Shown: positions 8,838-60,181 of the stretch, piece by piece
Position numbering within the stretch: position 1 is the stretch's first letter
Layout: each line of letters begins with the position of its first letter
Origin: a virus
Virus record (IMG/VR): IMGVR_UViG_3300021964_000060
Coordinates: 1 to 62,021 of that record
Length of the DNA: 62,021 nt
Strand: one strand, 5' to 3'
Made by a program: the position numbers and the translations under genes
The notes under the pieces: generated by a model
The model's database searches: none
What the model was told of the DNA's origin: nothing
What the model saw: the letters and a program-made list of their open reading frames with translations, nothing else

Positions 8838-8845
8838 TATTTATG
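8838..8845 (-). promoter_or_regulatory. Late promoter variant CATAAATA upstream of the 78-aa gene
   Basis: CATAAATA on the minus strand, 21 nt before the ATG at 8816. It differs from the T4 late consensus only at the first base. The TAA stop codon of the upstream 966-aa fibre gene lies inside the octamer. Confidence 0.55.
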
Positions 8846-11741
8846 ATTCTATCATTGTATACTGTATTTTTACTGTCATAGTATTTGTATTACTTCTGGT
8901 CATAACTAAAGAAGTTGTTCCGCTTGAAAATGAAACATCAAAATCCATTATAGGTTGACTCCCGGTATAAATATTAGCGTAAGAAGTAATTTGCGGTAAA
9001 GCTCCATTTGTTAGTATAAGAGCTTCTTGAATTTGTTCTTCAGCCGAAGTATTATCTCTAACATGTATTAATAATTTAACACCTTTATAATTGTTTGAGG
9101 TATACGTAAATGTTGGATTTGCGGGAGTTGCAGTTACATTAAAAGATGCTGTTCCTTGTTGTGCAATACCGTAATTTACATATCCAGAAAAATCAGCATT
9201 TGTTCCATAAATATCGCCGGTTATTGTTAAGTCACCTGTATTAGCAACAGATAACAAATCAACATTTTCTAATACACTAGAATTGTATGTATAAATTGTT
9301 ACATCAGCACCCGTTGTTGGTGCAGGAGTAATTGTAACAATACCTGTTTGTGAATTTGCAGTAAAATTACTATCATCGACCAAACTTCCGTTAACAAATG
9401 GTTGAAAATATAACCATTTATTTGTTGCCGTACCGAATGTCGAAGATCCGGAAGATGTAAAGTTATAAACTTCAACAGCCACAAACCCGGAGCCGCCTCC
9501 ACCTCCACCGCCAGTGACTGTTGTAAATGAGAAATTGCCATTTCCGTCTGTCTGTAATACTTGTCCTGCATTACCATCTGAAATATTAAAATCTAAAAGT
9601 GATGTAGGCGTATTAGTAAAATTAGTATAATCTAAATAATGTGTTCCATCTTGTCCATCTAATGTGTCTGCATCAAGCCCTGTTGTAGACGATGTTAAAA
9701 TATTTGATCTTGTGGTACCATCACCTACTACCCATACATCATTTGACTCATCCCATTCGATGTAAGAATCAGTAGAAGAACCTCGATTTACGACAATCGC
9801 AACATTTGAAGTTGGAGCTACGCCACCTAAATCTGAATTTAATGTAATAACAGTGTCAACACCTGTCAAATCAAGAACAGGAGCTGTTAACTTTCTGCCT
9901 GAACCGTTATTAACCGTTATAGAGCCATTAGTAGCAACACTTTGAAACGTTACGATACTTGAAGTTGCAACGGCTTGACCGATAGAAATGGTGCCACTAC
10001 TTATTGTTACACCAGTTCCTTGTGAAAATGCACCTTGAGCTAAACTGTCTGAAAAATATTTATTTGTAGTTCCTTCTATTAAATCATCAGTTGTAAATCC
10101 GCTTAAATTATGATTAACAACACTTACGCTTGAACCCATATATGAATGGACGCCACATTGATAATACAATTTACTAGGAGTAGAATCTGTAACAATTAAT
10201 TCAGCGTAAGCTCCAGGGGAACCTGCAGTACCAACATATGTAAAGTTAGTTGTATATCCTAGAGATTTTGCTGCATCAAGGTAAAAACCTAAAGGGTGGT
10301 TAGTGTTGGTTGAATCTGACTGGTCAAACTGATAAGTCACATTGGGAATAAATGATATATGCGGACCTTCTATACCGTCAATAGCATATCCATTTGAGGA
10401 TCCTTGTCCAAAGAAAATATGGTCAGCAGTTTTACCTTGAACAGTTACAGTATAGGTTACGATTTTGTTATTGTTAATCGCATCCATTTTTTTACTATCT
10501 GTGACTAATGTGTAACCATTAAGTATGTTTACAGTTTTGTTTTTACCATTCAAGGTAACCGCAGGATTATTAACGCCCGTGTCATCTCTAACCACAAACT
10601 CTAATCCTCCAGTCCATGGATTAGCAACAACTGGATCTGTAATAGTACCTCTAATATGAGAATATAGCGCCTGTCCCCCAATGAATCCGCCTGACGTACC
10701 GGAACCGTAAAACAAAATTTCACCCGTCCGAGTTCCAACAACCGGTAAATTTGCATTAGTCATATTGTGAGCAAACGTTAATTCTGGGCTGTCTATTGTA
10801 TCAGTAAGATTAAGGTCTAGGAATGTTGGTTGAGAAGTTGTGCTTAAATTATATGCTGTACCTGAAACTGAAAGTTGACCAGAAAGATTAATACCAACCC
10901 CCGTATTTAACGCTCCCTGTGTTGTGGTTGTCGTTGATGCACCGGCAACGGCAACTGTACCTGAATTATCTGGTAAACTAATTGTTCTATCAGTAGATGG
11001 GTTTATTACTGTTAATGTTGTTTCCCAACCATCATCGGTTGCACCCTCAAAAACAATACTACTGTTAGCATACAAATATAAATCAGCATTTCCTCTTACT
11101 TGCACTTGAGGTTTAATTGCACCTAAACCAGTTAATGATAACACTGTTGTATCGAACTTTTGATGTGCAACAACAAAATCCATTATGCCATATTCAGAAC
11201 CTGCAAGACTGTTAAACCCTCGCTGTTGGATTCTTCCATACGCCATTAGGCTTCCGCCATTATCATAACCTATAAAATCAAAATCAGCTATGCTACTGTG
11301 ATTAGACTCAATCCAGAAATTAAATCCGCCAACACCTTCATTAACAAACTTTGCGCTATAATCTACAATTGGAGTATTTGCTGTGACTAATAAGTCATCT
11401 TTTAAAGAAACTGAACCTTCAACTTGAAGTTTATTTACACCATCATCGGTACCTGTACCGATTAATGTATTGCCTTTAAACTCATTAAGGTAAATTGTAC
11501 CGTTAGAATCAACTTCAATAATAGGTACATTGTTAGCATCGTTTGCAGAAAATACAATTCCGCTTAATGAATTTGTGATATTAAATAAATCACCAATTGA
11601 ACTAGAAAAGTTTAAAGAACCGTCATCCTCAACTGTTAGTGTAACAGGATTATTTGACCCACCCGTAAATACAATGGTGGGATCTGCATTTGCATTGCCC
11701 GTTTGAGGCGTAATTAATATGTTCTTATCTGAATCTGCCAT
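8841..11741 (-). CDS. Tail fibre protein with embedded cupredoxin-like domain
   Basis: 966 residues from the ATG at 11741. The N-terminal module ('ILITPQTGNANADPTIVFTG' to about residue 90) is a recurring start of fibre proteins in marine T4-like phages. Fibre-shaft motifs follow ('DRTISLPDNSGTVAV' at 251-265; 'DADTLDGQDGTHYLDYTN' in the second half). Residues about 426-544 form a cupredoxin-like domain with candidate type-1 copper ligands His482, Cys529, His532 and Met535; the C-x2-H-x2-M spacing equals that of amicyanin. A polyglycine run leads to the C-terminal beta domain. The predicted role is host recognition at a fibre. Copper binding is inferred from ligand conservation only. The gene ends inside the next late promoter. 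Confidence 0.75.
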   Translation of the reverse strand: MADSDKNILITPQTGNANADPTIVFTGGSNNPVTLTVEDDGSLNFSSSIGDLFNITNSLSGIVFSANDANNVPIIEVDSNGTIYLNEFKGNTLIGTGTDDGVNKLQVEGSVSLKDDLLVTANTPIVDYSAKFVNEGVGGFNFWIESNHSSIADFDFIGYDNGGSLMAYGRIQQRGFNSLAGSEYGIMDFVVAHQKFDTTVLSLTGLGAIKPQVQVRGNADLYLYANSSIVFEGATDDGWETTLTVINPSTDRTISLPDNSGTVAVAGASTTTTTQGALNTGVGINLSGQLSVSGTAYNLSTTSQPTFLDLNLTDTIDSPELTFAHNMTNANLPVVGTRTGEILFYGSGTSGGFIGGQALYSHIRGTITDPVVANPWTGGLEFVVRDDTGVNNPAVTLNGKNKTVNILNGYTLVTDSKKMDAINNNKIVTYTVTVQGKTADHIFFGQGSSNGYAIDGIEGPHISFIPNVTYQFDQSDSTNTNHPLGFYLDAAKSLGYTTNFTYVGTAGSPGAYAELIVTDSTPSKLYYQCGVHSYMGSSVSVVNHNLSGFTTDDLIEGTTNKYFSDSLAQGAFSQGTGVTISSGTISIGQAVATSSIVTFQSVATNGSITVNNGSGRKLTAPVLDLTGVDTVITLNSDLGGVAPTSNVAIVVNRGSSTDSYIEWDESNDVWVVGDGTTRSNILTSSTTGLDADTLDGQDGTHYLDYTNFTNTPTSLLDFNISDGNAGQVLQTDGNGNFSFTTVTGGGGGGGSGFVAVEVYNFTSSGSSTFGTATNKWLYFQPFVNGSLVDDSNFTANSQTGIVTITPAPTTGADVTIYTYNSSVLENVDLLSVANTGDLTITGDIYGTNADFSGYVNYGIAQQGTASFNVTATPANPTFTYTSNNYKGVKLLIHVRDNTSAEEQIQEALILTNGALPQITSYANIYTGSQPIMDFDVSFSSGTTSLVMTRSNTNTMTVKIQYTMIES

Positions 11742-11766: not shown

Positions 11767-11774
11767 TATTTATG
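11767..11774 (-). promoter_or_regulatory. Late promoter variant CATAAATA upstream of the 966-aa fibre gene
   Basis: CATAAATA on the minus strand, 25 nt before the ATG at 11741. The TAA stop of the upstream glycine-rich gene is nested in the octamer. Confidence 0.55.
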
Positions 11775-12756
11775 AAACATTTGTGCTAGGGAAAGCACGA
11801 TTTTCTCCCCAAATAATTCTGACACCTCCGGGAGCTCCCCTTGCAGAACCAGATCTATCAGCAGCACCGCCACCACCATATTCACCACCTCGACCTTTAT
11901 CAGTGTTAAACCCGGTACCGGTTATGCCGTCATCGCCATTTGACCCACCTTCTCCAAAATTACCACCTTGACCGGTTGTTGATTGACTTCCTGGATTGCC
12001 GCTAGTGCCCTCACCAAAAAGACCTACACCACCGCCGCCACCGCCGGTATTGACAGAACCACCACCGCCGCCACCACCAGCGCCTCCGGATCCACCTGTG
12101 CCTGCTTGACCTTGACCTGTTGAGCTGTTACTTACGCCACCATTACCACCATTGCCCGAATATCCTCCAGCACCACCGCCACCTCCGCCTCCGGAACCGC
12201 CTTGGTCACCACCTGAACCCCCAAAGCCACCGCCTTGGGTACTGCCTGTATCTGTTAATGCAGCGTATTGTCCACCACTCCCACCGACTCCATTACCGTA
12301 AACAGAAATTACGCCTGCATTTCCGCCGTTTGCTAAAACAAATGTAGTTCTTCCAGAGGAGACTATGGATCTTAAACCGCTACCTGCATACATAGGAAAA
12401 TCTGAACTTAGACCTGGAGATTTTCTTACATCTTCTCCACCACCGCCAACAGTAATATCAAGAACTTGACCCGGAAAAACATCTATATCATTTTTCCAGT
12501 GCAAAGCGCCGCCACCGCCACCGCAACCACCATTGTAACCATAACCTGCGCCGCCTCCGCCAACAGCAACAATACATATACTCCACACACCTTGAGGAAC
12601 TGTCCAAGTGTAGTATTTTGAGTCATACGGTACTGCTGGATCAACCTCAAATAATCTTGAACCAAAAGGCACGGGTAATTTGGTCGCAGGGTATTTTGCG
12701 TTTTTATCTCTACCTAGATTTGATGTTGCTACTCGAGGCCCAGAATGTCTTCCCAT
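11770..12756 (-). CDS. Glycine-rich adhesin-like protein, MxxHxGxR family member A
   Basis: 328 residues; the ATG at 12756 is preceded by AAAGGTGA. The N-terminus 'MGRHSGPRVATSN' shares the M-x-x-H-x-G-x-R tag with the next two upstream genes. Residues about 45-80 ('TWTVPQGVWSICIVAVGGGG') start a glycine-rich domain with long Gly runs through most of the protein, ending 'APGGVRIIWGENRAFPSTNV'. Such domains resemble the polyglycine-rich receptor-binding tips of T-even phages (gp38-type adhesins), but the pattern is not the Gly-X-Y of collagen. The predicted role is surface recognition. Its stop codon is embedded in a late promoter for the next fibre gene. The gene is richer in G and C than its surroundings because of its glycine codons. 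Confidence 0.7.
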   Translation of the reverse strand: MGRHSGPRVATSNLGRDKNAKYPATKLPVPFGSRLFEVDPAVPYDSKYYTWTVPQGVWSICIVAVGGGGAGYGYNGGCGGGGGALHWKNDIDVFPGQVLDITVGGGGEDVRKSPGLSSDFPMYAGSGLRSIVSSGRTTFVLANGGNAGVISVYGNGVGGSGGQYAALTDTGSTQGGGFGGSGGDQGGSGGGGGGGAGGYSGNGGNGGVSNSSTGQGQAGTGGSGGAGGGGGGGSVNTGGGGGGVGLFGEGTSGNPGSQSTTGQGGNFGEGGSNGDDGITGTGFNTDKGRGGEYGGGGAADRSGSARGAPGGVRIIWGENRAFPSTNVS

Positions 12757-12881: not shown

Positions 12882-14057
12882 CTAATATACAAACAATGTG
12901 TTATTTTTCCTATAACGAATAAATTCCACATTTGTAGAAGGAAATTCACATACTAAACCGGTTGATGTGGGAAAAGCACATATTCTAACAACGCCATCAC
13001 CGCCATGACCACCGTAAAGACCATCTTCGCTACCTGCACCGCCTCCCCCATAATGTCCAGTTCCTTCGGACCAACCTAGTGTCCTACTAACCGCATTTAC
13101 TGAACTTCCGTTAAGACCACCACCCCAAAAACTTATTTGAGAACCTCCAGTTCCAAAACCAGCAACAAGTCCGGTGTTGGTGTTGGTTTGCCCCGCACCA
13201 CCCGTTCCGCTAGCACCTTCTCCCCAAATTCCCGTTCCGCCACCGCCTCCGTGGTTACAGGAATTAAAATGTCTTCCACCCCCGCCGCCACCACCACCGG
13301 CACCATCGAATCCACTATTTCCTCCTAGAGTGGAACCTGGATTTGAACCAAGAAAAGCACATCCGTCACCACCATTGCCCGAATAACCTCCAGCACCGCC
13401 GCCACCGCCACCGTAGTTATAGCACCCACCTCTACCACCATTGCCGCCACCCATACCGGTATTATTACCATAAGTAGTAGTTTGTGAAATACTTCCATCA
13501 AATCTAGGCTTAGCAGCTAATTCCGTTGTATTAGTATTGCGTGATCTTGCTCCAAGACCGCCTTCGGCCTGAACCCTAAAATTACCAAATGCCTCGAGGC
13601 GGTCATCCCAAGTTGAGTCTTCGCCTTCCTGTGCTAAAGTGGTTCCGCTCTGAATAGATATGGCTTGACCGCCTGAACCAACCGTTATATAATATGTGCT
13701 CCCCGGAGTAACATCAATTCCATTCATATAAGCTAAGGCACCGCCAAAGCCTCCTGCCCCGTATGAAGAAGCGCCTCTTCCGGCTCCACCGCCGCCAATA
13801 CATAAAACTGATATTTTACTAATTCCATCTGGGCATATCCAAGTATAATTACCAGGAGTTTCAAATACCCAATCTAATCTTTCTGAGTTTGCACTTGCAG
13901 TCTCATTACCATTGGCACCTTGCAGATATCGAAACGGAATATTCCTAGTAATTAATTCTGCCGTTGCTCGGGCTTCTTCACTCTCATTGAGTCTTTTAGC
14001 AACTTCTTTGTTCGAACTATCAATTACTGAAGCTCGTTTTCCGTAGTGTAGGCTCAT
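12882..14057 (-). CDS. Glycine-rich adhesin-like protein, MxxHxGxR family member B
   Basis: 391 residues from the ATG at 14057, which overlaps the TGA stop of the 1,180-aa fibre gene (ATGA), so it is translationally coupled to it. The N-terminus 'MSLHYGKRASVIDSSNKEV' carries the M-x-x-H-x-G-x-R tag. A short helical segment (about 15-45) leads into 'WVFETPGNYTWICPDGISKI' and a glycine-rich domain with many GG and GGGG runs, ending 'FPSTNVEFIRYRKNN'. The 'FPSTNV' ending is shared with member A, so the two are probably duplicates that diverged in the glycine-rich region. The predicted role is a tail-tip or fibre adhesin. Its placement directly after a long fibre gene resembles the T-even gene 37-38 arrangement. 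Confidence 0.7.
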   Translation of the reverse strand: MSLHYGKRASVIDSSNKEVAKRLNESEEARATAELITRNIPFRYLQGANGNETASANSERLDWVFETPGNYTWICPDGISKISVLCIGGGGAGRGASSYGAGGFGGALAYMNGIDVTPGSTYYITVGSGGQAISIQSGTTLAQEGEDSTWDDRLEAFGNFRVQAEGGLGARSRNTNTTELAAKPRFDGSISQTTTYGNNTGMGGGNGGRGGCYNYGGGGGGAGGYSGNGGDGCAFLGSNPGSTLGGNSGFDGAGGGGGGGGRHFNSCNHGGGGGTGIWGEGASGTGGAGQTNTNTGLVAGFGTGGSQISFWGGGLNGSSVNAVSRTLGWSEGTGHYGGGGAGSEDGLYGGHGGDGVVRICAFPTSTGLVCEFPSTNVEFIRYRKNNTLFVY

Positions 14058-42070: not shown

Positions 42071-43302
42071 AGTTCAGATCCTAATCTTACTCCGCCAATA
42101 TCAACGACTTGAACATTTGCATCCGTTCCGGAAACTCTAACTGCCTGTCCTCCGGCGCCGCCCCTGCCGCCGCCAGATCTGGTACTATCACCTCCCGGTT
42201 GGCCCCAGCCGCCACCACCACCAGTTTCACTACCATTAGAGCCATCGCCGCCCCAGGCTCCTCCGTTTCCGCCACCATTATTGTCACCGGTGCCTCCTGT
42301 TGCGGTTTGTCTCCAGTCACGGCCTCCGCCACCGCCACCACCGTATAGTGTAGAAGCTTTGGTTCTTGTGCGTCTTCCGCCACCGCCGCCGCCAGCAAAT
42401 CCGCCAGCTCCCGGTTCGTTACCGCCACCATTAGCGCCTCTTAGAATATTTGCATCGTTTCCTTCATTACCAGATATAGCTCCTGCACCGGTACCCGTGC
42501 CGCCTGCTCCGTTATATGCTCTTCCGTTTCCACCGCCAGCGGCACCGCCGCCGCCTCCGCCAGAGCCAACATCGGATCCGCCACCGCCGCCTCCGCCAGC
42601 TAAAATAAACCCTGCATTAAGAACTCGGACTAAAGGTAAAACACTATCTGGATCATTGACGTTTTGCCTACCTGCATTTACTTCTATAGCATCGCCGCCA
42701 ACTTGACCGGATCCTCCATCACCTCCGCCTTGACCACCTTTTCCTAATATAATTCCTCTTGAATCAACTGTAATAGGGTTTACCCAAGCAGCTCCACCGT
42801 TGGGATTATTAGTGGCTTTATCTATTTTAATTGTAGGATTTTGTACTGATGTTCCATAGATAATTACATCTGCAGGTATGAGAATAACTAATTCACTAAA
42901 TCCATTCCATCCTTGTGCAACTGCATTTGATAATAAATCATAGTTTGATGTTTGATAGGTTCTGTATGTTTGACCTCCAGCGGTTGTGAAAGTGTTAAAA
43001 TCACTTGGACCAGGAAGTTGTCCATCAGGATATCCAATTGCCGCATCTTCAGGATTACCGCCAAAATACCATGTGTGTATATTTTCTGCCCCATAGAAAT
43101 CACTTAATGAAATAGGGGAACCTTTTGAAGGTATATCTCTGTCAGCTGAAAAAAATTCTGAAATAGCAGTAAACCCTACATCATTAAATTCGGCCCTCAC
43201 ATCACCCAGAGAAATAGGTACGCCATTTCCTTGAAGAATACTAGTTTGAATATTATCAGTACTAGTATTAGATGAACCAACAATAAAATCCGTATTAGCC
43301 AT
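42067..43302 (-). CDS. Glycine-rich adhesin-like structural protein (411 aa)
   Basis: The ATG at 43302 overlaps the stop of the S74 fibre gene by one base. Residues about 20-75 carry the structural module 'GNGVPISLGDVRAEFN' ... 'SPISLSDFYGAENI', known from marine T4-like virion proteins. A middle domain ('NAVAQGWNGFSELVILIPAD') precedes a C-terminal domain dominated by Gly runs ('AGGGGGGGSDVGSGGGGGG'), which ends 'VQVVDIGGVRLGSEL'. It lacks the M-x-x-H-x-G-x-R tag of the other two glycine-rich proteins, so it attaches differently. The predicted role is an exposed adhesin. High local GC reflects the glycine codons. Confidence 0.68.
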   Translation of the reverse strand: MANTDFIVGSSNTSTDNIQTSILQGNGVPISLGDVRAEFNDVGFTAISEFFSADRDIPSKGSPISLSDFYGAENIHTWYFGGNPEDAAIGYPDGQLPGPSDFNTFTTAGGQTYRTYQTSNYDLLSNAVAQGWNGFSELVILIPADVIIYGTSVQNPTIKIDKATNNPNGGAAWVNPITVDSRGIILGKGGQGGGDGGSGQVGGDAIEVNAGRQNVNDPDSVLPLVRVLNAGFILAGGGGGGGSDVGSGGGGGGAAGGGNGRAYNGAGGTGTGAGAISGNEGNDANILRGANGGGNEPGAGGFAGGGGGGRRTRTKASTLYGGGGGGGRDWRQTATGGTGDNNGGGNGGAWGGDGSNGSETGGGGGWGQPGGDSTRSGGGRGGAGGQAVRVSGTDANVQVVDIGGVRLGSEL

Positions 43303-44729
43303 TACTTTGTTCTTTTTAATTCTTCAATTTCTTGTTTTAACTCTTTAATTGCTTCTACTAAAAGTCCAACAACGTTGCCGTATCTAATAGCTTTCATTTC
43401 ATCTGGGGTTTCATAAACTGCTTCAGGCAAAACTTTTTCTAATTCTTGAGCTATAAGACCTGTTGTTCTTATTTCAGGTTTATCTTTATAATTAAATGTA
43501 ATACCCTGTAAGGTTGAAACCTTATCCAATGCGTTAGGTATAACATCAATATTTTCTTTTAATCGAATATCTGAAGCATCCGTGAAAGCCGTAACATCGC
43601 CGTCTGCATAGATAGAGCCATCAGACATATCGAAATATACTTTTGTAGTATCAATTCCTAATGCAGCGTCAAGATATTTAAAATTAAAGAAATTAGGAAC
43701 AGAAAAATTCATTTGACCGTAAGTCTGTCTAACAATAAAGTTTTGACTCAGTCGGTTGTATTGCATTTTAACAGCATCTTCTCCTGCTGCCTCTGTCCAA
43801 TTAGATCCAAAAATTAACTGTGTATCATCACGTAAAGCCATTCCACCCTGTACGATTTCTGATACAAAATATTCACCAGCATTGTCTGGATTTTCTGTAG
43901 GTTCTGTTCTAACGTATCGTGTGTCGCCATCAGATATAGATGTAAAGTTATTATCAATTTCAGTTCGTGTGTAATACCTTGTATCGTGGAAGTGAGAATC
44001 ATCTCGAACTTTTAAGAATGCCTTAATGTCACCTGATCCATCTATAATCATTTCACCTGAAACATGACCTTGGGTTCCGACTGAAATAGGTCCTTGGTCA
44101 TCATCTGTTAATAATTTAAAGTCATCTGAAAATTGTATAGTTCTTGCTGTCTTCCATCTGTCGGCTGTACCAACATTTGAAAATCTTATTTCTTCTGGGA
44201 AAAGCGCATCATCAAAAAGAATATTAGTACCTGTAACGATACCAGGATTTGCATTTCCTGTTAGTACATTTCTAGAATTTGATCTTTGAATTATAAGTTT
44301 TGTCGTAATAGGATCTACACCCACATCACCTGGATAGTACCCTGTAAATACTAATGACTCGCTGTCAACACCAGTTCCTATTGAAAATGTTTCATCAGCA
44401 GTTGTTTCACCAAATCTAAACTGTATTGCATTTTCTATGCCACCTTCAGGTACAAATATTTCTTGCATGTATGTTCTAAATACAGGGGAAGAAGCTAGAG
44501 TTCCGACTGTAATTCTATTTGTTGCACCATCTAAAGGATATAATTCGTCAGAATATAACCCACCAGTTGTTTTTATATCACTATCAATATATAACTGTGC
44601 GTCATTATTTGCGCTAGGACCACCTAGCGTAGCAACATTTGAAAGTGACGTAATAATTTCGTTTGTACGATTTTTCCACGTATCAAACGTATTTGTATTT
44701 ACTACTGCTTGTAAATTTCTAATTGTCAT
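43302..44729 (-). CDS. Tail fibre with C-terminal S74 self-cleaving chaperone domain (475 aa)
   Basis: The ATG at 44729 lies 11 bases inside the coiled-coil gene. The N-terminal and middle parts are fibre-like ('ITVGTLASSPVFRTYMQEIF', 'YYTRTEIDNNFTSISDGDTRY'). Residues 384-475 are a peptidase S74 intramolecular chaperone: 'DASDIRLKENI' holds the conserved cleavage serine Ser386 and the catalytic Lys391 with the family spacing, followed by 'GLIAQELEKVLPEAV' and a C-terminal helix ('LLVEAIKELKQEIEELKRTK'). In this family the domain drives trimerisation of the fibre and then cuts itself off. The mature fibre would therefore end near residue 386. Confidence 0.85.
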   Translation of the reverse strand: MTIRNLQAVVNTNTFDTWKNRTNEIITSLSNVATLGGPSANNDAQLYIDSDIKTTGGLYSDELYPLDGATNRITVGTLASSPVFRTYMQEIFVPEGGIENAIQFRFGETTADETFSIGTGVDSESLVFTGYYPGDVGVDPITTKLIIQRSNSRNVLTGNANPGIVTGTNILFDDALFPEEIRFSNVGTADRWKTARTIQFSDDFKLLTDDDQGPISVGTQGHVSGEMIIDGSGDIKAFLKVRDDSHFHDTRYYTRTEIDNNFTSISDGDTRYVRTEPTENPDNAGEYFVSEIVQGGMALRDDTQLIFGSNWTEAAGEDAVKMQYNRLSQNFIVRQTYGQMNFSVPNFFNFKYLDAALGIDTTKVYFDMSDGSIYADGDVTAFTDASDIRLKENIDVIPNALDKVSTLQGITFNYKDKPEIRTTGLIAQELEKVLPEAVYETPDEMKAIRYGNVVGLLVEAIKELKQEIEELKRTK

Positions 44730-50341: not shown

Positions 50342-52207
50342 TTAAAAGTCAAAGACTAATTTTACTTTTTCTCTACGATCTTCTGTTCTCTCAATCGGAT
50401 CGAAATTCACAAAATGTAAAACTTTACCTGAGTATGGTTTAAATTTTTCCGTCTCAACATTATTTATAATGAATGTTTCAACGTCCTGTGAGTCTGCATT
50501 TGCTTTAACAGAAATTTGTCCAGAAAATGCTTGAACAGGAGGCGTCTGTGTTAAATCTTCTACAATTTGAGCTGTAAAAGATTCACTATACGGACCCACT
50601 GTATCATATAACCAAACATAAGTTTTACCCTCTTGTGCATCATACATAACTTCATGTACATTTGCAGTAATTTCTTGTCCGTTTTTAATTTGTGACACAA
50701 AATAGTTTTGTACAAAATTAGCTTCTACATCTGCATTAAATGTTAACTTAACTCTATTATCAAATGTTTGAGGAGTTAATCCAGAATAAAACTCAGGATT
50801 TTTCACAAGAGCAACTTTAGTATACGTATTTGTCACCGGAGTATTTCTTAAAGCATCTCTAAAGAAGTTAGTACTTACTGCTATTTCAGACATAAACAAT
50901 TCTGTAATCGGATTAGACCCATGACCCCCAATTGGTGACATAATACATCTAAACGAATTGTTCTCTGCTCTATCTTCGATTGCTGCAGGTAAAGCTAAAG
51001 TAGCTAAAGCAGTTTTATAACCCGAGCCTTTTTCTCTAAATTGAACTTTTCTAATAGTACCTGTATAATCCAGAATACCATATGCAATTGCTCTTGTTCC
51101 TTGCAGATCTGCATCTGGAACAGATATTTCAATCTTAGGAACTATTTCTATTTCTAGACCTACACGACCTAATATATTAGTTTCAGTTTTTACAAATAAA
51201 ATTAAAACTTTATTTAATGATGGGTCTTCAACCCCATTAGGTATTTCAGAATTTAAAATATCAAAAATTTCCCCTGTGCTTGTAATTCTTGCATATAGGT
51301 TTCTATATGCACCTGCTGTATTACGAACAATATTTTCGGAAGTAAAAGTAATCCTATATGTGTTATCAGGCACCGAATCTATTTCAACAGAATCAATAAC
51401 AGCAGAAGTTGGATTAAGAGAGTTTTCTTCTCTACTGCCAATAAGGTAATCACTGAAAATACCAAAATCAGTATTGTTAATAACTATGTCAGATATTCTT
51501 TCTCTTGCATTTGTTGAAACACCTGTTTCAGCAATATAAGGTAATGTAGATGATGTTGCAAATATTAAATACTCGGAGGCAGGTACCTCAAACATATATT
51601 TCCATACATATCCATCTTCGAGTGTTGTTTCAAAATAGATATCAAGATTAGAAGTAGATGGCCTAACAACGGAAGGTGCTCTATTATTATTTCTTATGCA
51701 TTTAAATACTTTAAAACTTGCTTCACCTACATCTCCATCAAGCACTGTAACATAGAAGTTTGTAGTTTGCATATCAATGGTATCATCAAAAGAGTCATAA
51801 ACAGTTCCAGATATCCATTGATTATTTCTAAACATATAACGAACATTAGTTTCGTCTAGTTTATTTCCAAATAAAACTCTTCTAGAAAATTCACGCTGCT
51901 TAAATTGTGAATTATTAACATCACCATCATCAGTTACGCTAGAAGCCATAACGTAATATGTATTCTGCGGAAGAATAGTATTAATATTTTGTCTTGCAAT
52001 AGCAGTAATAGATTCAACTTGTGCATCAGTTAATCTTTCACCGTCTTCCTCATCTTCCTCTGGAATAAAATCTAAAGGTAAATCACTATTGTAGCTTTCT
52101 AAGCCTGCTTGGAAAGACCTGACAACTGCTTCATTATTTGTTCTATATGATTTAACAAACTCATTTGCAGTTTCCACTCTAAAATTTTCTGTAATTATTT
52201 TTGCCAT
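50342..52207 (-). CDS. 8: Baseplate wedge protein, gp8-like (621 aa)
   Basis: The ATG at 52207 is preceded by AGCGGA. Features of the gp8 family are an N-terminal 'ITENFRVETANEFVKSY', 'YYVMASS' near 84, 'NNQWISGTVYDSF' near 128-140, 'FKVFKCIRNNNRAPSVVRPS' near 165-184, the strong 'EDGYVWKYMFEVP' motif (197-209) and the C-terminal 'KVKLVFDF', comparable to the T4 ending. It is nearly twice the size of T4 gp8 (334 residues), with extra beta-rich sequence including an 'EKGSGY' unit near 388. Gene order relative to gp6 and the gp7-like gene also fits. Confidence 0.72.
   Translation of the reverse strand: MAKIITENFRVETANEFVKSYRTNNEAVVRSFQAGLESYNSDLPLDFIPEEDEEDGERLTDAQVESITAIARQNINTILPQNTYYVMASSVTDDGDVNNSQFKQREFSRRVLFGNKLDETNVRYMFRNNQWISGTVYDSFDDTIDMQTTNFYVTVLDGDVGEASFKVFKCIRNNNRAPSVVRPSTSNLDIYFETTLEDGYVWKYMFEVPASEYLIFATSSTLPYIAETGVSTNARERISDIVINNTDFGIFSDYLIGSREENSLNPTSAVIDSVEIDSVPDNTYRITFTSENIVRNTAGAYRNLYARITSTGEIFDILNSEIPNGVEDPSLNKVLILFVKTETNILGRVGLEIEIVPKIEISVPDADLQGTRAIAYGILDYTGTIRKVQFREKGSGYKTALATLALPAAIEDRAENNSFRCIMSPIGGHGSNPITELFMSEIAVSTNFFRDALRNTPVTNTYTKVALVKNPEFYSGLTPQTFDNRVKLTFNADVEANFVQNYFVSQIKNGQEITANVHEVMYDAQEGKTYVWLYDTVGPYSESFTAQIVEDLTQTPPVQAFSGQISVKANADSQDVETFIINNVETEKFKPYSGKVLHFVNFDPIERTEDRREKVKLVFDF
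50461..50468 (-). promoter_or_regulatory. Possible internal late promoter TATAAATA
   Basis: An exact octamer inside the 3' end of the gp8-like gene, 134 nt before the DUF4815 gene start. It could supply that giant gene with its own late message, or be chance. Confidence 0.3.
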
Positions 52208-52219
52208 TTCGTTTTCCGC

Positions 52220-53824
52220 TTAACCTGTGTTTGTTATTGTTAAATTGTTTACCGTAGTAGGATTTACTTTTTGATACTTACTGGGAAAATATGCAATTCT
52301 GTTATTGCCGCCTTGAATACTATCTTGGTCGTCCCAGTCATCAATAGCACCTTCGTATAAAAGATTTTTAGTACTGTTATTAGCTAGCCATTTTTTCATC
52401 TCTGCGGGAGTCATTCCCGGATTCATTTCCAGTACACATGCAATTAGTCCAGCCACATGAGGGGAGGCCATTGATGTGCCGCTTATCTTCATCAGATAAC
52501 TACTACCATCTAATGGGTGTTGCACTCTTGTATATCCACTTTGTTGTATGTTGTTCGTGCCGGAACCATTGTCCGTACTACTCACGCTAATAATCTCTGT
52601 CCCGGGAGCATATATATCAACACCTGGACCACATTCACTTGATTCTGATTTGTGCTCAAATCCACCTTGATATGTTATATCTATATTTCCTACAATAATT
52701 GCTTTATCAGAATAGGGTGAGGATCCTCTATGATAATAAATTGTTCCTGCATCCGTACTCATACTATTATCATAATCAGGCCCACCTTCTACATCTATTT
52801 TATGATACCCGTTGCCGGCAGATATACAAACGTGTACACCAGCATCAATCAATTCTTCTAAATCTATATCAATTGACGAAATCCTGAGCTTACTTCGGTA
52901 GCTAAACTCATCCGAACCAATGAGTGGGACTATACCGTAGTTTTGCCATCTGTATGTTGCATTTGTAGTAGTGCTAGAATCTGTGAACGTATTGCCTCTA
53001 AATGTAACTGATGAAACAGAAGTAGCAGTATACTCAGAGTAATAACCCCAACTCATATTTACAACTGTGGGACGTTTGTATCCAGTTTGTGGGTCTATAG
53101 GTTTATTATTATGAAACGCTTTTATAAGGTCAAATGCAAAAGTGGGAGATATTCCTCCGCCTTCACCTCCATCTAAACCCGCAATCTTTTGCGAATAAAT
53201 TCTTGCACCACGAGCCATACCCATTGTGCGTCCTGCTGCAGTTCCTGCGACATGCGAACCGTGTCCATCATAATCAAGGTTATGGTTTGCGGGTAAAGGA
53301 TCTGCGAACCCGCCTTCATCATACCAATTTATTGATTGAAATCTTGAAACGCCATTTTCATCTGTGAATTCTATATTGTCTGCATCTATCCCACTATCTT
53401 GAATAACGATATCAACACCCTCACCTGTTGCGGTGTAATTGTAAACACTATTAAGAGAAATAAGTGCATCGAATGGATCTGCTTGGCTTATACATCTAGT
53501 TATTGTCCAAGGATATTCATTCGATTCTATAGCATTTGTTTTTCTGTATGTTCCGGGTTGTGATGCATCTGTACCAATAATAGCGGTTGGATCATTCTCT
53601 GGCGGTATGTGAATGTCATACACTCTTTCGTCATTTTTTAATTCTTCTACTTCTTCATCTGTTAAAGAATAATGTGTCATTCTACGACTATGTGGTCTAG
53701 GATTAGCTACCTCAACAGAACGACAGGGAATATTTCCCGCACCTGTTTCTTCAATCATTTCTTGATTGAATGCTTCGTAATCTACATCTTTTTTTAATAT
53801 AACAATATATTCTTTTTCAGACAT
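52220..53824 (-). CDS. Subtilisin-like serine protease (S8 family, 534 aa)
   Basis: The ATG at 53824 follows a weak TAGGT site. Residues 1-75 look like an inhibitor-I9-type propeptide ('EYIVILKKDVDYEAFNQEM', 'SLTDEEVEELKNDERVYDI'). The catalytic triad is complete: Asp143 ('IQDSGID'), His188 ('DGHGSHVAGT') and Ser451 ('SGTSMASPHVAG'), with oxyanion-hole Asn338 ('ISAGN'). An insertion of about 60 residues (about 262-322) lies between the first two and last catalytic blocks. No signal peptide is present. It sits among baseplate genes between the gp8-like gene and a cupredoxin fibre. Possible roles are maturation of tail or fibre proteins, or action on host surface proteins while virion-bound. 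Family is certain; role is inferred. Confidence 0.9.
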   Translation of the reverse strand: MSEKEYIVILKKDVDYEAFNQEMIEETGAGNIPCRSVEVANPRPHSRRMTHYSLTDEEVEELKNDERVYDIHIPPENDPTAIIGTDASQPGTYRKTNAIESNEYPWTITRCISQADPFDALISLNSVYNYTATGEGVDIVIQDSGIDADNIEFTDENGVSRFQSINWYDEGGFADPLPANHNLDYDGHGSHVAGTAAGRTMGMARGARIYSQKIAGLDGGEGGGISPTFAFDLIKAFHNNKPIDPQTGYKRPTVVNMSWGYYSEYTATSVSSVTFRGNTFTDSSTTTNATYRWQNYGIVPLIGSDEFSYRSKLRISSIDIDLEELIDAGVHVCISAGNGYHKIDVEGGPDYDNSMSTDAGTIYYHRGSSPYSDKAIIVGNIDITYQGGFEHKSESSECGPGVDIYAPGTEIISVSSTDNGSGTNNIQQSGYTRVQHPLDGSSYLMKISGTSMASPHVAGLIACVLEMNPGMTPAEMKKWLANNSTKNLLYEGAIDDWDDQDSIQGGNNRIAYFPSKYQKVNPTTVNNLTITNTG

Positions 53825-53833
53825 TTATTATAC

Positions 53834-56026
53834 CTATACAATATTAATCGTATTACCCATACCGCTATGAGTCACACACTGGTAATACAACGTTGCTGGC
53901 GCAGACATTGGAACAGTAAACTTAATTAATCCTGTTGATGCTCCGTTGTTTGTAACACCTACGCTATATGCTGCACCTCCAGAAGCAACACGAATTTCAA
54001 AAGGATGAGACCCACCTGAATTATTTTCAAATATATATGTTTCACCTCTACGTAAATATAAAACTGGATCATTTTCCGTAGTTGGGAACCAAGCATTTTT
54101 ACTATCACTAAATGTAAAATCAGATGTTCCGTTAGCGCCTAATACAAATACATGTGTTGTACTACTTGCACCCCAACCTGCTGAGCTATAGGATTCTATT
54201 CTTTCATATTCATTATTATAAATCATGTCCCCTAAAGTTGGGGCAAGACCATTTCTTTCTGTGGTTGTAAATGAACCCAATCTAATTGGAGCACCCACTA
54301 CTACAACAGCGTTACCTGCTTCTAAATTAAGATTTTGTGAAGCAACAATTTCTGTATCACCTGTTCCGCCTGTTGTTATTCCTGTACAAGTGATAGCGCC
54401 AACAGAGATATTATTTGTTGTTGTTCCGCCTCTTGTTGTAACAGCATCTAATGTATCTGTTTCAAGGTATGATGTTAAATATCCTGCTGATGAGTGGTCA
54501 CCCCAACCATATGCAGTATCCCAGTTGCCAACTTTAGCGTCAGTAATAACATTTGTACCCATGTCAATTTCGTTGCCGTTGGCATCAAGTGTACCACCCA
54601 ACTGTGGAGTAGTATCATTAACCACATCACTAATTGCATTTGCAGGAATCCAGTTTGCACCATTCCAAGATAAAACTTGACCGTTTGTTGGTGCTGCAGA
54701 TGTTGTATCAACATCTAATAAATCATCAATGTAAGCAACATTAGATGAGCCTGCTGTTCCTGTCTGGACGTTAACAGTCGGTGTCGATCCGTAAATTATA
54801 AATGTAAATGGACTGAATGAACTTGGTGTACGGCTTTGTGTATCATCATAAAACTCTGCCGTAAACCCGGTTGTTGTTTTGTTTGTTATACCAACAAAGT
54901 AATTGTCAAATGTTTCACTGTCTGTGATAATAGAATAGTTTGCATCAGGTTGTGCGCTATCAAAAGTAAAATCCAGTGTTGCATTTCCACTGTTCCAACT
55001 GCCCCAACTGATACCCGTGCCTGTACCGTCAGCAGTATCATCTACAAATCCAAATGCAATTGGAGCAATAATAGATGTTTGTCCTCCGCCTGGAACAAAT
55101 TCGTTTGCATTAGCGTCCCAAACGAGAGCTTGACCGTCCGTAGGAGCGACTGAAGAAATATCAACATCAGAAAGGTCATTAATAGATCCAACAGACGAAC
55201 TTGTACCCCATTCTAATTGTCCTGTTGTCCCATTCGCTATTTTTAATACTGTACCTGTTGCACCTTTTGTAGAAGGCCATATAACATCCGCAACAGTAAT
55301 TACGCCACCAGCAGCTGTGTTTGCTACAATGTTTAATTGACCGCCACCGGAAGACAAAATTAGTCCACCCGTGGTATCATTATCTGAATCACCTGCTATA
55401 GTAACTTGACCTTGACTCGATAATGTAACTTGTGATTGAGCAGTTAATTGTAAAACACCTGCAGATCCTAAAACTTGAATAGCGAAATTATCATCTTCAG
55501 GAGCAACAATATCATTACCGTTTGTGTCTAAGTTTGCTCCTAACTGCGGTGTAGAATCATTTACTAACTCAGCAGAAACTCCGCTAAGTGCTGTTTGAAT
55601 AGAAGTATTGACAAAACTTTCTGTTGCATATCCTGTTAAGTCAACTGATAACCCAGACAAGTCAACTGTATTACCGTCACTAATTGTTAATTCATTTGTA
55701 CCAGAATTGAAAGTAAGTGTTTGAGAATCGCTATCAGTTAGTAAGCCTATTGATGTATCAATATCTGCTTGTGTAACATAGTTGTTTGCTATTGTATCAA
55801 CCGTAGCGCTAAGCGCATTGACAGTACCTGGCAATGTAACTAGAGGCGCTACATTAGCAGATAACTGTTGCAGCGTTGCATCAAGTGTGACGATATCAGC
55901 TTGTGCTACGCTAATATCATCATAAACCTCTATGAAGTTAGCATTTATTTTTGAACCTGCCGCTCTAACTGAATCTCCCAATCCATCATTAGGTGCATTT
56001 CCTGTTTCTATGACTTGTCTTGCCAT
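53834..56026 (-). CDS. Fibre-type protein with C-terminal cupredoxin-like domain (730 aa)
   Basis: The ATG at 56026 follows the gp7-like stop after three bases. The N-terminus 'IETGNAPNDGLGDSVRAAGS', then 'KINANFIEVYDDI', is the common phage module for baseplate-attached fibres, followed by a possible helical segment. Two 'DLxDVDxxSxAPTxGQxLxW' units and two 'NDxTPQLGxxLDxNGNxI' units alternate. The final 100 residues form a cupredoxin-like domain with candidate ligands His674, Cys717, His720 and Met723, and end 'MGNTINIV'. The same ligand set occurs inside the 966-aa fibre. Its position between the gp7-like gene and the protease suggests a short fibre or tail-pin role at the baseplate. Confidence 0.72.
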   Translation of the reverse strand: MARQVIETGNAPNDGLGDSVRAAGSKINANFIEVYDDISVAQADIVTLDATLQQLSANVAPLVTLPGTVNALSATVDTIANNYVTQADIDTSIGLLTDSDSQTLTFNSGTNELTISDGNTVDLSGLSVDLTGYATESFVNTSIQTALSGVSAELVNDSTPQLGANLDTNGNDIVAPEDDNFAIQVLGSAGVLQLTAQSQVTLSSQGQVTIAGDSDNDTTGGLILSSGGGQLNIVANTAAGGVITVADVIWPSTKGATGTVLKIANGTTGQLEWGTSSSVGSINDLSDVDISSVAPTDGQALVWDANANEFVPGGGQTSIIAPIAFGFVDDTADGTGTGISWGSWNSGNATLDFTFDSAQPDANYSIITDSETFDNYFVGITNKTTTGFTAEFYDDTQSRTPSSFSPFTFIIYGSTPTVNVQTGTAGSSNVAYIDDLLDVDTTSAAPTNGQVLSWNGANWIPANAISDVVNDTTPQLGGTLDANGNEIDMGTNVITDAKVGNWDTAYGWGDHSSAGYLTSYLETDTLDAVTTRGGTTTNNISVGAITCTGITTGGTGDTEIVASQNLNLEAGNAVVVVGAPIRLGSFTTTERNGLAPTLGDMIYNNEYERIESYSSAGWGASSTTHVFVLGANGTSDFTFSDSKNAWFPTTENDPVLYLRRGETYIFENNSGGSHPFEIRVASGGAAYSVGVTNNGASTGLIKFTVPMSAPATLYYQCVTHSGMGNTINIV

Positions 56027-56029
56027 TTC

Positions 56030-58432
56030 TTATTCCCTATCAAATGTGATACTGTCGTTATCGAAAGTCAATAATTCTTCATCAAATGTATCTAAGTTGT
56101 AATCTTGTCCTATTGCCAGCGGAACCGAATTATCGAAAAATGGTAATTCAATTCCTGTAGTTGCGTCAAAGTTAACAATTACTGCATTAAGTATTTCACC
56201 TTGCTCAGTTGTAATTGTTACACCATTTTCATCTTCTTGCTCAACTCTTAACGGCAATTCAGCAAACGTATATGACTCAATGGCTACATCCGCATTAGGT
56301 CTTGTATTATTAATTGTATTTATCAAAGGACTGCTAAACATTTTTGTCCCAGCAACATGAACAGTGTCCTTTACGATATTTTCATATTTTGAAGGATCTA
56401 ATAAAGATGAAATATCGTATGAATACTCTTGATAATAATTATTATCTTGAATATATTTACCTGGATCATTTAAATGAGAAGTTGTTGTAAACCATTGTCC
56501 GTTTGTTTCACCCATGCCCCCAACAGAAAGTTCAGCAAATGCTACTGTTTCACCTGATTCTTGATTTACAAGAGCAACCTTTTCTTTGTCTCTGTATTTA
56601 AACCCGGACTGCAAAACATTAATTCTACGAATTTGACCAATAAGTAATTCTGAATTACCTCTAATATCAGCGTTATAACCCATAGGTCTTGAATTTAAAT
56701 CCTCACCAACATCTTCAATTACAAGTTCCCTTCCCCTAAACTCAACTTCTCCTCTTTTTGGCTGAAAGAAAGTAATAGGTCTAAAATAGAATATACTTCC
56801 TTCACGTCTTAAGAATGTTGCCTTTGCATCATAAGGTCTAAACCCTGTAGGGAAGGCATCTGTATTATAAGTTAAATCTTCAATTTCAATTCTTTGTGTT
56901 AATACATCACCTGCCTGAATAATAAAATCACTTCTATCGAATCTAATGGCTAAATCTCTATAATCATATTCAATTAAATCTGGAAACCTTAAAATAGTTC
57001 TAACGTTATTTACATAATCTGTTCCAGTGTCTAATACTCTCAATCTTCGAACACTGCCAATTTCATATGTAGTAGGTGTAAACGCATCTTTTATTTGCGT
57101 ATTAATATTCTCTAGACCCGGACCTGACATTCCATAGTTTTGCGAGTCTAGCCTTACGCTCAGAAAATCTTCAATCTTATCTGTAATAACACTAATCTCT
57201 TCTTGATTAGAAAAGACACCTATATCAAAAAGAGCAGTATCGTTATATTCCGCATGTCCATCAACTTGTATTCTTAATCCATCATTTAATGTGACAGTTG
57301 TTGACCCCTGTGTTGGATAAGGAACAAATGCCGTATTTCCAATGGCGACAAAAGCTCCGTTTGCAGGCGATACATTGTTAGGCGGTTCAACATCTAAGTA
57401 AACAATAGGATGTTCATATGCGACAACAGTTCCTCTTCCACTAAATACGTTATTACTGTCCGCATCTGATAATGGGTTTTCCGGATCTCTTGTGAATATC
57501 TCTTCTGACTCTGCTGTTAAGACGTCAAACGGTTCTATGTTATACGCTGTGTTACCACTTAGAATTAATACCTGTGTCGAAATAATAAGTTCGTTTTGTG
57601 TTTTATCGACAGAAAATCCAAAACCACCATCTGCAATTTCCCATTCAATAATACCTGATGGTTTAAGAGATACATCTTCAACAACAGCAGTCGCATCTAC
57701 CCCAAAGGCATCAGATATAAGATTTAACCTATCGCCCACTTTATTGTTAGGTCTGGAACCTTCTCTTAATATTGTGGTGCCTTGTATTGATCCATAAATT
57801 AGAGGACCCGGATAAGAAACAACCCCATCTCTTTCCCGTATAATCCCGTCATCAGCTAAGAAGGAACCGAATACGTTTGAAACATATCCTACGGGAACAA
57901 TTGCGCCATTAATATTATAAAATACAATATCATCAATATATGCATATGCCTTTGATAAATCTCCTCTAATAACATCACCTTTTGATAGAGGAAATTCATC
58001 AACTGTTGAAACAGATTTGAATTCTATAAATTTAGTAGATACAAATTTAGAATCTGATATTTTTAATATTGCATTTGATGGATAAAATAATTCAACCTCT
58101 TCTTTAAAAAACATATTAAAGAGAAGTTCGACCGATTCAGGTGTTCCTTTTCTAGTATATAAATCAGCGATATGCTTTACAATAAATCTTAAGTCATCAA
58201 AAGAAGTATTTACAAAAGGTAAATCTTTTAAAAACTTTCTTTTATAATATATTAAAAACTGATTAAAGGTAGTATCAATATCACACAGTTCAGAAAAGTT
58301 TCTATGGGTTTGATTATCTAAAAACTCATAATACGCTTTAGTAAACTCGACAAAGAGTTTACCATCTTCCCTATAAAACTCCGGGAACTGGTCAGGTATA
58401 AATGGAGCTATGGAAGGTGCAGCATATCTCAT
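56030..58432 (-). CDS. 7: Baseplate wedge protein, gp7-like (800 aa)
   Basis: The ATG at 58432 overlaps the gp6 TGA (ATGA). The N-terminal 120 residues ('APFIPDQFPEFYREDG', 'LFVEFTKAYYEFLDNQTH', 'IADLYTRKGTPESVELLF', 'FFKEEVELFYPS') match the conserved C-terminal part of T4 gp7 ('FYSTKGI...FLFKVLYNEEVEI'). This core joins gp6 in the wedge, as in phage tail protein I relatives. The rest is beta-rich with Gly-Tyr units such as 'VLQSGFKYRDKEKVALV'. It is shorter than T4 gp7 (1,032 residues) and differently arranged, so the symbol is by homologous core and position. Confidence 0.68.
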   Translation of the reverse strand: MRYAAPSIAPFIPDQFPEFYREDGKLFVEFTKAYYEFLDNQTHRNFSELCDIDTTFNQFLIYYKRKFLKDLPFVNTSFDDLRFIVKHIADLYTRKGTPESVELLFNMFFKEEVELFYPSNAILKISDSKFVSTKFIEFKSVSTVDEFPLSKGDVIRGDLSKAYAYIDDIVFYNINGAIVPVGYVSNVFGSFLADDGIIRERDGVVSYPGPLIYGSIQGTTILREGSRPNNKVGDRLNLISDAFGVDATAVVEDVSLKPSGIIEWEIADGGFGFSVDKTQNELIISTQVLILSGNTAYNIEPFDVLTAESEEIFTRDPENPLSDADSNNVFSGRGTVVAYEHPIVYLDVEPPNNVSPANGAFVAIGNTAFVPYPTQGSTTVTLNDGLRIQVDGHAEYNDTALFDIGVFSNQEEISVITDKIEDFLSVRLDSQNYGMSGPGLENINTQIKDAFTPTTYEIGSVRRLRVLDTGTDYVNNVRTILRFPDLIEYDYRDLAIRFDRSDFIIQAGDVLTQRIEIEDLTYNTDAFPTGFRPYDAKATFLRREGSIFYFRPITFFQPKRGEVEFRGRELVIEDVGEDLNSRPMGYNADIRGNSELLIGQIRRINVLQSGFKYRDKEKVALVNQESGETVAFAELSVGGMGETNGQWFTTTSHLNDPGKYIQDNNYYQEYSYDISSLLDPSKYENIVKDTVHVAGTKMFSSPLINTINNTRPNADVAIESYTFAELPLRVEQEDENGVTITTEQGEILNAVIVNFDATTGIELPFFDNSVPLAIGQDYNLDTFDEELLTFDNDSITFDRE

Positions 58433-60180
58433 CTAGAAGCCTTTATATTTACAACTACATCTTGCTGTCTGATCTTAACGATTCTATCTTTTGTTCCCAC
58501 AACATCAGAATCTTCTGTGTGTGCAATAATGCAAATAGCACTTCCCGTAAATGATTGAACACTTATGTCTTTAAGAGATACAATACCTCTTGTATAATCT
58601 ACGCTGCCAAGTTTCTTTTTAAATATTTCTCTATTATTTGTATTTGATGTAATGGCTACAATCTCACCTGCACCATCATCTTGCAATGTTACTGCTTGAC
58701 CGTCTAATACAAATTGAGAAGAAACAAACGATGGTTTGAAATCTGTTAACCCAATACTATCATTATAAGGATATGGTTTTATTAGAGGTGTTGCAAAAAC
58801 AAAAGAAGGACTTTCGACTGTTCCTAAAGACGGAACCCACTCAATAACAGGCTGTGAAACAATCGATACTGAATCAACTGATGGATCAGATGTTAAGAGT
58901 TTAGATTCAAGAGCAGATGTGATTAGGCCAACATTAAAATCATCTAGATTATCAGACGAATAGTCACTAATATTTTGTCTAATAATATCTTCTAATTGAC
59001 CAACCGATAATAATATATCATTTTTGTTGTACTTAACATTAACATTAAGATCTGCATATAAAAATTTAGCTGATCTTAGAATTGGTTCAATCGAAATAGG
59101 TGCTTTGGATTTAATAAAATCTTTAAACTGTTCCAATTCAGATAATGATGCACCATCCCGTCCTTGCACATCCACAACAATGATAACACGACCGAACTGT
59201 GGAGGCTCATCATCCTCTCCGCCGAACACGGAAATTGATTGTATTTGTGGATATCTTTGTCTTAATAATATCTCATAATCTTTACTTGTTACTGCTCTTT
59301 CTTGTACCTGAAATGCTGCAGGAGCAAATCTACGAATTGATTCGGTTGTTTCATATTCTGTTCCGCCAGCACTACAACCTTGAGGTATCACCGTTATTGA
59401 TTGTGCACCATATCTTAATGCATCAATAGTGTATGAGTTGACTCCGTTGCCATCAACTCCAGATGATATTCTATATCTTACAGTTATTCTATCTGTATTC
59501 GTTGGCTGTAATCCAAAAATGTTTTCACCAAATTGAATAGAATACTTATTGTTAAGTTCTGGCTGAATATAGAAAACCGCATCATCTGTATCCACGCCAA
59601 ATATATTTGACTTGTATTGATACTCAACACCATTAACAAATACTTGCAAAGAGCTTGTATCTATAAAACTATTATTAATAATTGTATTATTATAAGGAAG
59701 GACTTCGTCAAATAGACGACCTTCATATACTTCAACACCTTCAACTTCAAATAAAGTTCCGCTAACACGAGAGGCGGCGTATGCTCTATCAGTTATAAAT
59801 TCATATGTAATATTTCCACATCGTCCTAAGAAGATAGAAAACTTAGGAAGTATGTATGTATTAGATTGTTGATTACTTCTAATTTGTAAATTAACAGTAC
59901 CTTTAGATGATCTTCTAGATCTAGGAATATAATTTAATTCTTTAGCGTGACTAACAACTGAATTTTTTAATTGAGCCGAATCTAAAAACATTTCACCAAT
60001 AGACATATTATAATATTGTAATGTGTTATACGTATTATATGCCAATAAATCGACTAACACAGATATATTAGATCCGTCAAAATCATAATCTTTAAATCGA
60101 TTTTGATTTTTTAGGAACTCAACTAAATTAGATTTAACATCAAAGAAATCTACTTTACTATAAGGGGCTATTTTCGCCAT
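58429..60180 (-). CDS. 6: Baseplate wedge protein gp6
   Basis: 583 residues; T4 gp6 has 660. The N-terminal 'DYDFDGSNISVLVDLLAYNT' and 'NMSIGEMFLDSAQLKNSVVS', followed by 'HAKELNYIPRSRRSSKGTV' (about 31-97), is the defining gp6 signature, equivalent to the baseplate J-like family. A dimer of gp6 forms the inner ring of the contractile baseplate and clamps gp7 and gp25. It follows gp25 with one base between the stop and start, and overlaps the gp7-like gene by four bases. A CATAAATA octamer lies inside gp25, 49 nt upstream. Confidence 0.9.
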   Translation of the reverse strand: MAKIAPYSKVDFFDVKSNLVEFLKNQNRFKDYDFDGSNISVLVDLLAYNTYNTLQYYNMSIGEMFLDSAQLKNSVVSHAKELNYIPRSRRSSKGTVNLQIRSNQQSNTYILPKFSIFLGRCGNITYEFITDRAYAASRVSGTLFEVEGVEVYEGRLFDEVLPYNNTIINNSFIDTSSLQVFVNGVEYQYKSNIFGVDTDDAVFYIQPELNNKYSIQFGENIFGLQPTNTDRITVRYRISSGVDGNGVNSYTIDALRYGAQSITVIPQGCSAGGTEYETTESIRRFAPAAFQVQERAVTSKDYEILLRQRYPQIQSISVFGGEDDEPPQFGRVIIVVDVQGRDGASLSELEQFKDFIKSKAPISIEPILRSAKFLYADLNVNVKYNKNDILLSVGQLEDIIRQNISDYSSDNLDDFNVGLITSALESKLLTSDPSVDSVSIVSQPVIEWVPSLGTVESPSFVFATPLIKPYPYNDSIGLTDFKPSFVSSQFVLDGQAVTLQDDGAGEIVAITSNTNNREIFKKKLGSVDYTRGIVSLKDISVQSFTGSAICIIAHTEDSDVVGTKDRIVKIRQQDVVVNIKASR

Positions 60181-60181
60181 T

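Follow-up and report, generated by a model that had tools for sequence, protein, structure and literature searches.

A predicted cupredoxin domain with a complete type-1 copper ligand set in tail proteins of marine T4-like phages

Introduction

The tail tip of T4 gp37 holds iron by means of HxH motifs (PMC11705849). This site, together with the Ferrojan horse idea, likewise puts a metal on a phage tail fibre, but it is an HxH iron site on a different fold from the domain described here. Cyanophages encode plastocyanin (petE) (PMC3037559), which belongs to the same superfamily as that domain but is specified by a separate gene as a small metabolic protein that is not known as part of the virion. 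No published description of a cupredoxin on a phage tail was found in the open-licence literature, and neither PHROG 30742 nor PHROG 677 carries a cupredoxin or copper annotation in the libraries and records examined.

The window (the whole stretch of DNA analysed, a 62,021-base virus record) spans the tail module of a T4-like phage. Residues 424-546 of a 966-aa tail-fibre-type protein encoded there probably form a cupredoxin of the plastocyanin/amicyanin kind, a mobile extracellular module on the tail that is copper-loaded and has a role in binding or assembly. The first-pass annotation noted this domain in a single fibre protein. The finding is wider, extending to a family of probable virion cupredoxins in marine phages that includes a baseplate protein.

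Genomic context and ligand set

Genes for gp13/gp14-like head-tail proteins (1032-2766; gp14-like 2023-2766) and a block of baseplate genes (50342-60586) encoding gp25, gp6, a gp7-like protein, a further baseplate wedge subunit and a gp9-like connector flank a run of fibre-like genes. The gene for the 966-aa protein (8841-11741, minus strand; the open reading frame at 8844-11741 translates to 966 aa) sits in this fibre module, between the gp14-like gene and the baseplate genes. In related marine phages, the variable stretch from VrlC to gp14 is named the host recognition cluster (PMC7029224), and the domain-bearing gene occupies the corresponding place. The 966-aa protein matches phrog_30742 (tail fiber protein; E 1e-38) over residues 427-546 only, so that the PHROG-based fibre label rests on the domain itself; further support for the label comes from the position of the gene within the fibre module and from homologues that carry a tail-fibre annotation.

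Two neighbouring glycine-rich proteins (11770-12756 and 12882-14057, minus strand) belong to one family (phrog_4474, function unknown) and are probably duplicated adhesin-like proteins. Elsewhere in the window, the C-terminus of the product of 43302-44729 (minus strand) has matches in numerous families of long-tail-fibre distal subunits and of other tail proteins, which suggests a swappable fibre tip.

The cupredoxin domain, supported by AlphaFold2 and Foldseek, is encoded at 10104-10472 (minus strand). Its ligands, all on the minus strand, are His482, the first copper ligand, in the sequence NHPLGF (10296-10298); Cys529, the thiolate ligand (10155-10157); His532, the second His ligand (10146-10148); and Met535, the axial ligand (10137-10139). 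Translation and conservation identify all four, and the hhalign register also identifies His482. The DNA at these sites reads ...aaccaccct... and ...tatcaatgtggcgtccattcatatatg... The first-pass annotation had proposed a complete type-1 copper ligand set at these four residues, with 47 residues from His482 to Cys529, and the translation places each of them there. The spacing is His-x46-Cys-x2-His-x2-Met, ending in the shortest, amicyanin-type C-x2-H-x2-M. Ahead of His482 lies the loop F-D-Q-S-D-S-S-N-x-x-H-P-L, which is conserved and peculiar to the phage domain. Cys529 is the only cysteine among the 966 residues. Histidines occur at positions 148, 193, 325, 362, 441, 461, 482, 532, 544, 701 and 893, and a check of all of them finds no HxH motif of the T4 gp37 iron-tip type in the protein.

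A chance origin of the motif was considered and rejected, as H-x(40-55)-C-x2-H-x2-M appears in none of 20,000 shuffles of the 966-aa protein. Only two C-x2-H-x2-M strings occur in the approximately 37,000 residues of the window's reading frames, both in homologous copies of the domain. The second copy, also complete, forms the C-terminus (53837-54157, minus strand; HPF ... CVTHSGM; domain profile E 1.1e-33) of a 730-aa gp9-like baseplate wedge or tail-fibre connector protein (53834-56026, minus strand; phrog_677, E 1e-54).

Predicted fold and kinship to copper proteins

For residues 424-546, structure prediction and Foldseek searching yield a model with a cupredoxin fold, in keeping with the first proposal. 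The AlphaFold2 model of the fibre-type domain, built from 63 aligned domains, has nine strands (pLDDT 96.4, pTM 0.88). In this model His482 (model residue 59) stands just before the strand at 61-64, Cys529 (model residue 106) closes the strand at 101-106, and His532 and Met535 lie in the loop preceding the strand at 114-118, so that the predicted placement of the four ligands along the strands is that of cupredoxins. The best 50 Foldseek matches in the PDB are all cupredoxin-fold proteins; rusticyanin ranks first (E 2.8e-5), and multicopper oxidases, laccases, nitrite reductase and plastocyanin are also among the matches. TM-scores to PDB entries, normalised by query length, are moderate (about 0.42-0.56).

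The gp9-type copy is modelled with similar confidence (pLDDT 96.7) and matches rusticyanin best, with plastocyanin and amicyanin also found. Identity to PDB fold matches is low for both copies, at about 9-16% for copy 1 and 9-23% for copy 2. In the AlphaFold2 models and Foldseek comparisons, both copies have the Greek-key beta-sandwich of the cupredoxin superfamily. The fibre-type copy also has its His...Cys-x2-His-xn-Met order, in which the Cys ends the penultimate strand and the His and Met precede the last. In a viral fold library, the best named matches of the domain are cyanophage fibre and connector proteins. Short "beta-sandwich proteins" from Pithovirus/Marseillevirus relatives (A0A481Z6J5, A0A481YWX9) also match the domain fold (E 5e-10 to 4e-9) and are possible giant-virus cupredoxins.

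Kinship is detected through profiles and fold comparison only; single-sequence searches find no match in Pfam, NCBIfam or the PDB. A profile of 17 phage domains run against the PDB retrieves copper nitrite reductase (E 9e-4) and also finds pseudoazurin, multicopper oxidase and plastocyanin, with weak unrelated matches among and below them. Aligned by hhalign with 12 cupredoxins taken independently via PF00127 (93% probability, P 3e-7), the phage domain has His482, Cys529 and His532 in register with cupredoxin ligands, His482 being aligned with the plastocyanin ligand His. Cellular members of the family pass the PF00127 (Copper-bind) cut-off of 21.2 bits, with scores of 32.4 (a Bacteroidota protein), 29.1 (a secreted Prochlorococcus protein), 21.9 and 21.6. 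Since the window domain itself has no Pfam match whereas these cellular members do, its superfamily membership rests on fold and on intermediate sequences.

Ligand conservation

Among 96 domains of less than 70% identity, conservation is highest in five columns, namely His532 (100%), Met535 (99%), Tyr527 (98%), Cys529 (98%) and His482 (96%). Because many of these loci were fetched by the C-x2-H-x2-M pattern, the count was repeated on 45 non-redundant domains collected without the C-H-M motif. All four ligands are kept in 38 of these 45, and they hold ranks 1, 2, 3 and 7 of 95 columns (naive hypergeometric p 1.1e-5). The seven domains without a working C-H-M include six that miss it altogether and P-HM2 gp7 (K-D-H), in which only a His aligns. 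His482 is lost in 3 of these 7 and in 0 of the 38 with C-H-M (Fisher p 0.0025, kinship ignored).

The alignment points to a ligand set that goes as a unit and does not erode, as would be expected if the metal site is a working one. The four ligands are conserved jointly and do not vary freely among relatives, which supports the copper site first proposed; that site, as a complete type-1 cupredoxin ligand set on a tail protein, is supported by fold, kinship and joint conservation alike. The set H-C-H-M is present in 82 of 82 domains comprising those of the window and loci L163 upward, which are the best-scoring relatives. The C-x2-H-x2-M spacing is found in 244 of 244 pattern matches in the collected set, a count biased by the choice of part of that set on the same spacing. 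Cysteines other than the ligand are nearly absent (5 in 257 domains).

Some orthologues (S-SZBM1_53, P-RSM6, S-CREM1) keep the fold signature and have lost the C-H-M stretch, so the metal site is not essential in every context. Homologous domains without C-H-M also occur at L353-L355 and L385-L388. In L385-L387 the first His is replaced as well (SPFWIQ, IPFWIQ, APFWIQ), again a joint loss.

Distribution among phages and cells

By tblastn, the fibre-type domain occurs in 61 phage records, from phages of Synechococcus, Prochlorococcus, Pelagibacter and Methylophilales. The C-terminal gp9 type is found in far more (349), which are not 349 independent cases because many are near-duplicates (S-RIM2, ACG-2014 series). 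IMG/VR holds at least 566 relatives of the domain. Nineteen phage genomes searched whole have 1 to 5 domain matches each, and the carriers include fibres, among them one of the small Pelagibacter phage Baldr, as well as gp9, gp7 and other structural proteins. Among phage records, the domain is confined to phages of marine hosts or sources.

Virion proteomics places a homologue in the particle. The gp9-type domain of S-SZBM1 (146116-146424, within a 498-aa CDS at 146110-147606) keeps H...C-x2-H-x2-M. The S-SZBM1 virion proteome contains a 498-aa baseplate wedge protein, S-SZBM1_206, detected by 9 peptides that cover 24.9% of it (PMC9146016); its pairing with the domain-bearing CDS rests on equal length and on annotation, not on peptide sequences. 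Mass spectrometry of a homologous gp9-type protein with all four ligands thus agrees with the location on the phage particle suggested at first (PMC9146016).

Cellular proteins bear the domain as well. Domains of large repeat-rich Prochlorococcus proteins fall inside the starred fibre clade of 47 rows (99/97). The tree has few columns and unsettled bootstraps, and is used only for this clade, which mixes phage and Prochlorococcus domains. Some match is present in 72 of 266 Prochlorococcus genomes, mostly to a small single-domain protein. This protein has a reading frame of about 150 aa, a signal-peptide-like start, one domain, and its axial Met in a plastocyanin-type C-x2-H-x4-M. It represents a secreted single-domain cupredoxin family, distinct from plastocyanin, that is present in about one in four or five of the searched Prochlorococcus genomes. 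Bacteroidota and SAR116 proteins also bear the domain. Phage contamination of individual contigs is possible because several of the cellular genomes are single-cell assemblies; L148 resembles a phage gene.

The computationally established fold, kinship to copper proteins, joint ligand conservation and spread over tail and host surface proteins therefore identify a true extracellular cupredoxin module common to marine phage tails and bacterial surface proteins.

Interpretation

Copper loading of the phage domain is predicted and likely. We favour a copper-stabilised adhesion or assembly module, in which the apo protein would fold in the host cytoplasm, each domain would take up one copper ion outside the cytoplasm, from lysate or seawater, and the copper would lock the ligand loop. 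The domain would then be a sturdy tail module for binding or assembly instead of a carrier of electrons in metabolism; its docking face may be the one surrounding the C-terminal His, with either a surface partner or an adjacent tail protein as the target. The T4 virion has 18 copies of gp9; with as many per particle here, tens of coppers per virion are therefore conceivable.

That the cupredoxin fold is only a rigid beta-sandwich scaffold, with relic ligands and no metal in the virion, is highly improbable. Homologues that hold the fold signature without C-H-M indicate that the fold does not need metal, but relic ligands should erode singly, whereas those observed are top-ranked columns that vanish as a set; the ligand Cys is moreover the sole Cys of the protein, and non-ligand Cys is rare across the domains. 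The first-pass annotation had also entertained a stable fold that retained its ligands; as a passive relic this is now disfavoured because C-H-M is lost as a unit where constraint is released. Its other two suggestions were that the domain may bind copper-handling surface proteins of the host or undergo a redox-triggered conformational change. Sequence alone cannot name the metal, and the HxH iron tips of T4 gp37 (PMC11705849) lend some colour to a functional site with another metal (Zn, Fe, Ni), an unlikely reading for the 966-aa protein, which is without HxH. The same judgement applies to the Cys as a thiol, for example in a fibre-trimer cross-link, since the conservation of a Met and two His would not follow from a bare thiol function. 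The retained His and Cys-x2-His-x2-Met, with the Met strictly kept, is the type-1 copper signature, and its soft thioether disfavours Zn and Fe.

What the copper would do is a separate matter. Adhesion or assembly, a role proposed by analogy from the positions that the module occupies, is preferred to electron transfer because the domain is spread over many tail proteins, photosynthetic and non-photosynthetic hosts, and host surface proteins. A redox device, either passing electrons to and from surface or photosynthetic proteins of the host or triggering the tail on sensing redox state, is unlikely. It keeps some plausibility because the axial Met is near-invariant, as in redox cupredoxins, and Prochlorococcus hosts encode plastocyanin; but the module is also found in phages of heterotrophs and in surface proteins of Bacteroidota and SAR116, which argues against a general photosynthetic partner, and a display module accounts better for the presence of up to five copies, in different tail proteins, within one phage. 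Copper scavenging or delivery, with virions as seawater copper ligands that protect the lysate or host or exploit host copper uptake, is very unlikely. It would parallel the role of iron in the Ferrojan horse idea, and the confinement of the phage domain to marine hosts and sources, the secreted single-domain homologues in Prochlorococcus and the copper sensitivity of picocyanobacteria are in its favour. Against it, tens of atoms per virion are small relative to cell quotas, and the domain is built into fibres and baseplate, not displayed in bulk on the capsid.

The preferred copper-stabilised module carries a bolder and quite tentative extension, namely that the dominant T4-like phages of the sea have copper-loaded metalloprotein tails, on which a conserved blue-copper module of gp9 and the fibres, shared with host surface proteins, makes attachment or triggering depend on seawater copper or redox state. 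The carriers are among the ocean's most common viruses, the domain occupies a core baseplate position (gp9), and the module is common to host surface proteins and to the phage tails that have to make contact with them. Confirmation of copper would make this, to our knowledge, the first described blue-copper site in a virus particle, and would tie phage infection to trace-metal chemistry.

Comparison with known systems

Amicyanin, plastocyanin and pseudoazurin (PF00127) share the fold and the order and type of ligands with the phage domain, and the C-x2-H-x2-M spacing of amicyanin is that of the phage domain. These proteins are soluble electron carriers, whereas the phage domain is part of a large tail protein. 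Amicyanin is a small soluble redox partner of methylamine dehydrogenase, and a domain internal to a 966-aa protein is therefore not an amicyanin. Rusticyanin, the best PDB fold match of both phage copies, is a longer, periplasmic protein of iron oxidation, with identities of 11-14% to copy 1 and 18-23% to copy 2. The direct relatives of the window domains are phage proteins, PSSM2_295 of P-SSM2 and cyanophage gp9, and the domain is contained in PHROG 30742 (tail fiber protein) and PHROG 677 (baseplate wedge tail fiber protein connector, gp9).
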